A program made the position numbers and the translations under genes. A model generated the notes under the pieces. It did no database searches. It had not been told where the DNA came from and saw nothing but the letters and a program-made list of their open reading frames with translations. DNA of 64,000 nucleotides, taken from positions 62,001 to 126,000 of the forward strand of contig VHCJ01000004.1 of NCBI GenBank assembly GCA_016871755.1, read 5' to 3'. Source of the stretch: Verrucomicrobiota bacterium (GTDB lineage: Bacteria; Verrucomicrobiota; Verrucomicrobiia; Opitutales; Opitutaceae). Positions 28,477 to 47,898 of this stretch are shown here, in pieces (position 1 is the first letter of the stretch; every line of letters starts with the position of its first letter).

Positions 28477-29352
28477 ATGGCAGATAAACGCTTCCCTCGC
28501 TGCCTCGCTTGGCGGCCGCTCGGCCTTGTTGGGATCGCGCTCGGTCTCTTGATGCTGTCCACGGTGCGCGGCTCTCCGGAACTGTTTGCCTTCGACAACG
28601 GGGTCGGCCGCGAGCAGCGCTGGACGCCGGTCCGGCAGGCGGCGGTGCTGCAGGAACGGGGCTATGCGGGTATCGGTTACACCGGCGTGAATGACTTGGA
28701 GGCGCGGGTGGCGGCGTTTGCGGCGGCCGGGCTCCGCATTTACAGCGTCTACGTCGGACTGGTCCTTGACGGCAGTCCCGACGACGGCCCGGCGATTCGA
28801 GCCGCGTTGCCCCTCCTCGGGAAGTCCGGGATCGACGTCTGGCTGACCCTGCGCGGGCGCGCGGTGGATGACGCGACCGCGGTCCGGGCGGTGCGCGACC
28901 TGGCGGACGCGGCGGCGGCGCACGGGGTCCGGATTGTCCTCTATCCGCACAAAGGGTTCGTTGTGGCCACTGCCGAGGAAGGACTGCGCGTCGTCCGGGA
29001 GGTTGGACGGAGCAATGTCGGAGTGACCTTCAACCTCGCGCACGAACTTGCGGCCGGCCACGCCTCCCGTCTCGACGACGTGCTGCGGGCCTGCGGTGAG
29101 CACCTGTTCCTCGTGTCGGTCAACGGAGCCGATCCCGAGGGCGGCTGGGATCGCCTGATCCGACCGTTGGACGAAGGTACGGTCGACGTGCGTGGCCTCG
29201 TGGAGCGTGCGGTCCGCGCCGGCTACCGCGGGCCGATCGGCCTCCAGTGTTACGCGATCAAGGGTGAACCCGAGATCCTCCTGTCGCGCTCGATGACCGC
29301 ATGGCGCGCCTGGGGCCACGGACCGCGAGCGGCGCGCGAGACGTCGCGATAG
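28477..29352 (+). CDS. Secreted sugar phosphate isomerase/epimerase-like TIM-barrel protein
   Basis: This 291-residue protein has a hydrophobic signal-like segment (LGLVGIALGLLMLSTVRGSP) and an AP-endonuclease-2/xylose-isomerase-like barrel (ERGYAGIGYTGVNDLEARV, GLRIYSVYVGL, VLYPHKGF, VTFNLAHELA). PVC-group bacteria carry many exported members of this family, presumed to act on sugars. The metal ligands are less obvious than in cytosolic isomerases, so catalysis is unproven. It starts 136 bp from the palindromes and is divergent from the cys operon. Confidence 0.72.
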   Translation: MADKRFPRCLAWRPLGLVGIALGLLMLSTVRGSPELFAFDNGVGREQRWTPVRQAAVLQERGYAGIGYTGVNDLEARVAAFAAAGLRIYSVYVGLVLDGSPDDGPAIRAALPLLGKSGIDVWLTLRGRAVDDATAVRAVRDLADAAAAHGVRIVLYPHKGFVVATAEEGLRVVREVGRSNVGVTFNLAHELAAGHASRLDDVLRACGEHLFLVSVNGADPEGGWDRLIRPLDEGTVDVRGLVERAVRAGYRGPIGLQCYAIKGEPEILLSRSMTAWRAWGHGPRAARETSR

Positions 29353-29369
29353 CCGATCTACGATCGGCT
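29351..29369 (+). terminator. Hairpin overlapping the stop of the isomerase-like gene
   Basis: AGCCGATCTACGATCGGCT forms perfect 8-bp arms with a 3-nt loop and includes the TAG stop codon. CTCTTACAG follows, a weak T-tract, so termination efficiency is uncertain. Confidence 0.4.
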
Positions 29370-29404
29370 CTTACAGACCCAGTCCCCAATCTTTGGTGTA
29401 GACC
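29370..29404. repeat. 35-bp repeat, copy 1, downstream of tRNA-Pro
   Basis: This sequence is identical over 35 bp to 47724-47758. It begins CTTACAGACCCAG and ends TTTGGTGTAGACC. It lies 17 bp beyond the 3' end of the minus-strand tRNA-Pro gene. The second copy adjoins a transposase tail, so this may be a solitary insertion-sequence end. Confidence 0.8.
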
Positions 29405-29421: not shown

Positions 29422-29498
<77 letters not shown>

Positions 29499-47452: not shown

Positions 47453-47723
47453 GGTTCGATAAAAAACAACGGGCCTTCGGTCCTCAACACTGGAGCTGAC
47501 CCATGGGATGGCTTCGCTTCGCCGAGCCGAGGCTCGTCCCGCGGTCACCCGTGATCGTGCGGCGCGATTGACCCAACCGGCAACCCCACCTCCACCGGCC
47601 CGGCTCCCGATCTTTGGAGCAGACCCAACTCATCCAACGGCGAGCCTATGGCTTCCGCTCCTTCCCCAACTACCGCCTGCGCGTCATCGCTCAGTGCGGC
47701 TAACCCAACCCTAAAATCCTACC

Positions 47724-47758
47724 CTTACAGACCCAGTCCCCAATCTTTGGTGTAGACC
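47724..47758. repeat. 35-bp repeat, copy 2, beside the transposase tail
   Basis: Identical to 29370-29404 and in the same orientation. It starts 21 bp after the transposase-tail stop codon, where an insertion-sequence inverted repeat would be expected, and lies 65 bp from the 3' end of tRNA-Arg. A full IS end is not proven, because no left end is visible. Confidence 0.8.
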
Positions 47759-47778
47759 CAATCTTCGGTGTAGACCCC
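47759..47778. repeat. Degenerate partial copy of the same repeat
   Basis: Directly after copy 2, CAATCTTCGGTGTAGACCCC repeats the last 20 bases of the unit with a T-to-C change at the eighth base, giving a short tandem array at the tRNA-Arg 3' side. Confidence 0.65.
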
Positions 47779-47823: not shown

Positions 47824-47898
47824 TGGTGCGAGCGGCGGGAATCGAACCCACATCAACGGCTTCGGAGACCGCTACACTATCCATTGTGCTACGCCCGC
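47824..47898 (-). tRNA. tRNA-Arg (CCG)
   Basis: The 75-nt gene has acceptor arms GCGGGCG and CGCTCGC (one G-T pair), an anticodon loop CTCCGAA closed by GCGGT/GCCGT, and a T arm with GGTTCGATTCC. The discriminator base is A and the 3' CCA is encoded. Anticodon CCG reads CGG. Confidence 0.93.

Follow-up and report, generated by a model that had tools for sequence, protein, structure and literature searches.

Eukaryotic retrotransposons are the classic example of elements that use the flanks of tRNA genes as safe havens, and several of them depend on the RNA polymerase III machinery. To our knowledge, the bacterial elements for which a use of tRNA genes is known rely on recombinases, TnsD/TniQ proteins or guide RNAs; genomic islands and phages recombine inside the tRNA gene. 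Members of the ISL3 family of insertion sequences (IS) are characterized by an 8-bp target duplication and imperfect terminal inverted repeats starting GG-TC. According to the available parts of the reports, TRE3 of dictyostelids inserts 40-150 bp and Skipper-2 elements 7-136 bp downstream of tRNA genes (PMC5006619, PMC5911963), Tn7-like and CRISPR-associated transposons are bacterial DDE transposons using diverse tRNA genes (PMC11406308), and the accessible portion of the paper on the ISL3 member ISAfe1 does not mention a tRNA preference (PMC10322971). A literature search made outside ISfinder and the subscription journals found no description of an ISL3 element, or of any other one-gene IS, which prefers tRNA 3' flanks. 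Here we analyse a 35-bp repeat found beside two tRNA genes in a stretch of 64,000 nucleotides from an Opitutaceae bacterium of the Verrucomicrobiota (contig VHCJ01000004.1, positions 62,001 to 126,000; this whole stretch is called the window). It represents the right terminus of a decayed insertion sequence from one branch of the ISL3 family. What the window holds are fossils, and their value lies in the family of ISL3 elements behind them.

It is very probable that elements of this branch insert preferentially, and with a preferred orientation, at the 3' flank of tRNA and transfer-messenger RNA (tmRNA) genes, and that the site is chosen during transposition. Part of the evidence comes from a comparison of two sets of ISL3 loci, in which an element was counted as associated if a tRNA, a tmRNA or a tRNA 3' part lay at most 500 nt from the transposase stop codon. 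Such a neighbour was present at 60 of 79 loci of the branch (the clade) and at none of 27 loci of other ISL3 elements with enough flanking sequence (Fisher p 3.5e-13, with the reservation that copies within a genome are not independent). The earlier note on this DNA, made from the sequence of the window, had offered an IS end preferring tRNA 3' flanks as the first of its two alternatives, and the counts speak for that one.

The repeat in the window and in its genome

Two minus-strand genes are the only tRNAs that ARAGORN predicted in the window, and each has a copy of the 35-mer beyond its 3' end. The two copies are identical over 35 bp and have the same orientation; sequence and tRNA prediction agree with what the earlier note had reported. 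In 100 dinucleotide-preserving shuffles the chance expectation for the 35-mer in the window, at up to 3 mismatches, was 0.00. The features are as follows.

29370..29404, plus strand: right terminus, 35 bp, solo remnant of an ISL3-clade element; its outer tip points toward tRNA-Pro, 17 bp away
29422..29498, minus strand: tRNA-Pro(cgg), target gene of the first copy (ARAGORN)
47609..47625, plus strand: third right-tip-like motif, diverged, with 3 mismatches; immediately precedes the transposase tail
47620..47703, plus strand: ISL3 transposase remnant, last 27 codons and stop; reads QTQLIQRRAYGFRSFPNYRLRVIAQCG followed by the stop
47724..47758, plus strand: right terminus, 35 bp, second copy; 65 bp from tRNA-Arg
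47760..47776, plus strand: tandem duplicate of the 18-bp tip, one mismatch; between the second 35-mer and the tRNA, 47 bp from tRNA-Arg
47824..47898, minus strand: tRNA-Arg(ccg), target gene of the second copy (ARAGORN)

The transposase tail, which had been recognised before the second copy from the letters alone, was confirmed, and 23 of its 27 residues (85%) are identical to residues 366-392 of P0001, the transposase of an intact relative. No such tail is present in the sequence upstream of the first copy. At the tRNA-Arg site the earlier inventory was right about the second 35-mer and had overlooked the third tip and the tandem tip. The right ends are stacked there toward the tRNA, an arrangement that would reflect successive insertions, and by analogy with another locus (L034) the diverged motif is probably a later copy stacked into an older one. 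The earlier note had also proposed that copies paired as inverted ends around a transposase would define the IS. Such pairs do exist in the relatives; in the window the copies are degraded, and the search for a left end yielded two matches at chance level, one of which was the right end read backwards. Around the first copy (29352-29376), the GGCTCTT that opens the 35-mer is the same as the first 7 bases of the relatives' left end, and to judge from this match it may mark an internal deletion joining both ends; the first part of this segment also lies in a perfect hairpin. RNA folding of the window remnants was unremarkable (z -1.28 and -0.32).

The counts beyond the window rest on sequence searches of genome collections. 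In the source genome the 35-mer has four occurrences at up to 3 mismatches and its 20-bp tip is found at eight places in five loci. All eight tips lie 3' of tRNA genes (Pro, Arg, Gly, Ala, Val) and on the strand opposite to the tRNA, i.e. convergently, at a distance of 8-65 bp from the tRNA 3' end, with one diverged tip at 198 bp. Copies lying away from tRNAs and never beside a transposase, the outcome named beforehand as speaking against the idea, are thus not what this genome contains. Only right ends remain in it: no intact transposase was found there, the sole match being the 27-residue tail (residues 366-392). A transposase-tail fragment on another contig (L014, contig C23) has neither a recognisable tip nor a tRNA. 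On contig C1 (L011/L045, about 90600-92095) a double right tip by tRNA-Val follows directly on the end of an ATPase-like gene of 485 residues; a left inverted repeat was sought upstream of this gene and not found, and for this reason the gene was not adopted as cargo of the element.

The intact element and its transposase

Intact members of the clade are about 1.3 kb long and have one gene, which codes for a transposase of about 390-400 residues with an ISL3 DDE domain. The relative L035/L065 has 1,284 bp, the left end GGCTCTTCATCAAAGATTGG, the right end CCAAACTTTGGTGTAGACCC, the target duplication TTTTCGTT and one transposase of 392 residues. Between its ends there is a single transposase open reading frame, and no targeting partner or selector/AAA+ gene (TnsC, TnsD/TniQ) was found there. 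The inverted repeats of the Opitutaceae elements are imperfect (left GGCTCTTCATCAAAG..., right ...CTTTGGTGTAGACCC), and where the ends are well placed the two repeats agree at about 12-19 of 20 end positions. The protein P0001 scored 196.2 bits against PF01610 (DDE_Tnp_ISL3; cut-off 23, E 9.6e-58) and 271.7 bits against NCBIfam NF033550 (cut-off 180), and the ISL3 zinc ribbon was recognised in it with an E value of 1.6e-5. Judged by these curated criteria, applied to the proteins of its intact relatives, the element is a member of the ISL3 family. When 26 relatives were aligned, the blocks around GIDEH, VADRFH and ITEGFH showed little or no variation; these blocks presumably hold the DDE residues. 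The predicted transposase structure had a mean predicted local distance difference test score (pLDDT) of 86.3. That the 35-mer is an IS end is further backed by the intact relatives, which combine an ISL3 transposase with inverted repeats matching the 35-mer at the right and with 8-bp duplications.

Exact 8-bp target duplications were present in 25 of the 66 elements examined, although a few of these could be due to chance, as the ends were chosen to maximise a combined score for inverted repeats and duplication. The duplications are 74% A/T without a fixed sequence, and 19 of the 25 elements having them adjoin a tRNA, a tmRNA or a T-arm. Some end placements were clearly wrong and were not relied on (e.g. 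L066, L067, L070, L085, L087, L115, L128, L140). The 18-19 bp right tip often comes as a tandem pair, in the window at 47742-47776 and elsewhere in L003, L034, L051, L052, L089 and L098. The 8-bp duplication of L098 encloses the doubled tip as well, which suggests that this element moved as a whole with both of its tips.

Association with tRNA genes, exceptions and rival readings

The relatives were collected by a protein search with the L035 transposase in 84,980 species genomes, and the best 80 of 345 relatives gave 79 loci, with hosts among the Opitutaceae, other Verrucomicrobiota, Legionella and its relatives and a few other groups. It was a tRNA-linked tip that had led to the query; the relatives were picked by protein similarity alone. 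A search with the NCBIfam model in 145 genomes of the phylum added nine clade members and supplied 31 other ISL3 loci. Of the 88 clade loci 79 had at least 500 nt downstream, and nine shorter ones were omitted (one of them, L071, has a tRNA). A T-arm had to have 5/5 stem pairs in the count of the 79 loci; a slightly looser 4/5 was used in the duplication, Opitutaceae-tip and ten-genome counts.

A complete tRNA or tmRNA gene on the opposite strand was found by ARAGORN at 51 of the 79 clade loci, the number rising to 60 with the T-arms, and there was none on the same strand. In all 60 the 3' end of the tRNA or tmRNA points toward the element. When the loci were grouped at 95% identity, at least one tRNA or T-arm neighbour was present in 32 of 41 assessable clade groups and in 0 of 13 other groups; six clade groups and three others, cut off by contig ends, were excluded. 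In a tree built without an outgroup the clade is separate from the other ISL3 proteins, with a Shimodaira-Hasegawa-like approximate likelihood ratio test (SH-aLRT) value of 100 and a branch length of 2.05. Clade proteins mostly end with ...NYRLRV..CG and lack the C-terminal extension of most other sampled ISL3 proteins. Both kinds of element occur in one genome consisting of a single contig (G274), where seven of seven clade copies (at five tRNA genes and two tRNA 3' halves) and none of five other ISL3 copies are associated.

Searches with the tip gave a similar picture. The 20-mer occurs at up to 3 mismatches in 47 of 200 Opitutaceae genomes, some of these matches looking, by reading, like chance matches in genes; among the right ends with at most one mismatch in fetched loci, 25 of 30 lie by a tRNA or T-arm and none of the 30 is on the same strand. 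In the Puniceicoccaceae bacterium Marseille-Q1082 the right tip is present 33 times and 46 tRNA places are listed. At least 20 of the 33 tips face a tRNA 3' end within 260 nt (random mean 0.069, maximum 2 in 2,000 trials), which is a lower bound because the Rfam list of tRNAs is incomplete, lacking the tRNA-Pro(ggg) found by ARAGORN next to L107. Fifteen of the 46 listed genes are occupied in this way; two more tips are by the tmRNA and one by the tRNA-Pro missing from the list. Ten further whole genomes had 14 of 18 copies at most 500 nt from a tRNA or T-arm; most of the 18 were already in the main sample, and of the four new ones three have a tRNA. The tmRNA is the target in L098 and L126. 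A plasmid collection contained four relatives, all in Legionella adelaidensis.

Such figures could also arise if insertion were random and the copies by tRNA genes persisted because they do no harm in those intergenic places. Genes are indeed absent from tRNA flanks and some copies do lie elsewhere, but other ISL3 branches, one of them sharing a genome with clade copies, show 0/27. Moreover, tRNA 5' flanks are gene-free too, yet in no locus, on either side, does a tRNA 5' end face the element, and many tRNA genes already have beside them nearly identical copies whose 8-bp duplications are intact. We consider such survivorship improbable.

The right end lies about 7-330 bp from the tRNA 3' end, at many different tRNA genes and at the tmRNA, the distance being short in Opitutaceae and G274 and longer in Legionella and Marseille-Q1082. 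The transposase stop codon is almost always the part closest to the tRNA. At one and the same tRNA, copies are stacked within older ends or next to them, and in L096 a copy is nested in an older one at the same tRNA and has its own 8-bp duplication. Nesting of this kind fits a position set by the tRNA rather than by a motif at the insertion point. In L103 a direct duplication of about 38 bp, which includes the tRNA-Glu terminator hairpin, flanks the element instead of 8 bp.

A second possibility is that the target is an intrinsic terminator or an A/T-rich stretch and tRNA genes are merely strong terminator sites. The A/T content of the duplications and several insertions just past a hairpin with a T-run (L101, L119, by eye) would suit it. 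Terminators are, however, far commoner at protein genes than at tRNA genes, whereas 60 of 79 loci are at tRNA/tmRNA genes or T-arms; the L035 insertion lies between the tRNA and its hairpin while others lie beyond the hairpin; and in an Rfam scan of 16 tRNA-less loci no other RNA gene class adjoined the element, the only hits, to part of a group II intron and to a tRNA, coming from L140. We regard terminator targeting as very improbable.

Several right ends lie by tRNA 3' halves (L068, L086, L089, L123, L124, L131, L140, L180, L183). These halves are apparently attachment-site remnants of genomic islands, so that the IS and the islands would share tRNA addresses. Genomic islands or prophages integrating at tRNA genes might therefore have carried the copies there, in place of their own transposition, and the two copies by an integrase-like gene (L093, L127) could be counted in favour of such transport. 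It is hard to reconcile with the 51 of 79 loci at complete tRNA/tmRNA genes, with the 8-bp duplications directly flanking the element at many of them, and with nested copies that break older ones and have a duplication of their own (L096). The odds are strongly against islands as the carriers.

A guide RNA, or a sequence match between element and tRNA, would account for the use of many tRNA genes, as in the case of IS110 bridge RNAs or CRISPR-associated transposons; we found no specific evidence for it. In 42 elements the longest exact match to the own tRNA averages 8.5 bases, against 8.3 for the tRNAs of other elements, and near-identical copies use many different tRNAs, thus we give guidance by sequence match hardly any credence.

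Other observations weigh against an insertion preference for tRNA 3' flanks, or limit it. Nineteen of the 79 clade loci have no tRNA or T-arm within 500 nt; of these, broken tRNA 3' pieces are present at L068 and, by reading, at L099, L104 and L131. Exact duplications without a tRNA directly at the right end occur in L105, L110, L111, L120 and L125: L105, L110 and L120 are ordinary insertions at other sites, in L125 a tRNA-Gly lies on the left side at some 460-540 nt, and a tRNA-Pro follows L111 about 800 nt downstream. L072, the copy of genome G125, sits inside an epimerase-like gene. L074, L085, L090, L117, L135, L136, L139 and L142 are unassociated as well. L095, which has an 8-bp duplication, is the only copy with its left end alone toward a close tRNA (Ser), and the T-arm-only matches of L093 and L127 are about 400 nt away, inside the integrase-like gene. 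The distances between right end and tRNA vary widely. The tRNA-Ser flank common to L099 and L104 is not explained by simple transposition, and the fold search with the predicted transposase gave only general, distant DDE matches (best ISCth4, template modelling score 0.36). The plain insertions without tRNA and the copy inside the epimerase-like gene mean that targeting is not absolute: the preference for tRNA 3' flanks is strong, not absolute.

Two of these loci deserve a comment. L099 and L104 have about 44 bp of right flank in common, including the tRNA-Ser 3' tip, and then diverge; perhaps this was a transposition that carried flanking DNA. A copy in an epimerase-like gene in L058 (2695-7586) is itself interrupted by genes resembling two other transposases, which we take to be IS1634/IS4-like and IS110-like.

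Target choice and comparison with known systems

We suggest that the element selects the 3' side of tRNA genes while transposing, and that it does not just survive there by chance. Less surely, the cue would be a feature common to tRNA and tmRNA, and the likeliest one is the T-arm plus the acceptor 3' end, because the tmRNA is also used and this is the part that the two share. It might be recognised as DNA or as nascent RNA, with only loose constraints on distance, and might be reached by the transposase directly or via a host factor. Such a cue fits the tRNA 3' halves that adjoin several copies; island integration after IS insertion would look identical. There is about an even chance that the following wider picture holds: a single-protein transposase intrinsically finds tRNA/tmRNA genes genome-wide, probably via the T-arm/acceptor end, and inserts downstream with a preferred polarity, as a counterpart of Ty3/TRE3 that has an independent origin and has spread through Verrucomicrobiota, Legionellales and other groups. 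If true, the tRNA-flank strategy would also have evolved in a bacterial DDE transposase, in a one-gene IS of 1.3 kb, which would account for a class of IS remnants lying behind tRNA genes and would provide a very small model for work on target choice. Through the contrast between this branch and other ISL3 elements, the determinant becomes accessible to domain swaps and mutations.

It is instructive to compare the clade with the described systems. Its DDE domain, zinc ribbon, length of about 1.3 kb, single gene, 8-bp duplications and GGCTCTTC-type ends are those of the ISL3 family; unlike the other ISL3 elements sampled, it forms its own branch, is mostly without the C-terminal extension and is tied to tRNA 3' flanks. 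Genomic islands and phages with tyrosine recombinases use the same neighbourhood, and probably left some of the tRNA 3' halves by which copies are found, but the clade element inserts beyond the tRNA 3' end and with an 8-bp target duplication. Tn7-like and CRISPR-associated transposons need TnsD/TniQ or guide RNAs, whereas the clade element has a single gene in 1.3 kb and no partner gene between its ends. Insertion near many different tRNA genes within a window of distances is, as far as the consulted parts of the reports describe it, a trait shared with TRE3, Skipper-2 and Ty1/Ty3. Those are retrotransposons, several of them guided by the RNA polymerase III machinery, while the clade consists of bacterial DDE DNA transposons, and the parallel to the Ty and TRE elements is an analogy of behaviour, not membership.
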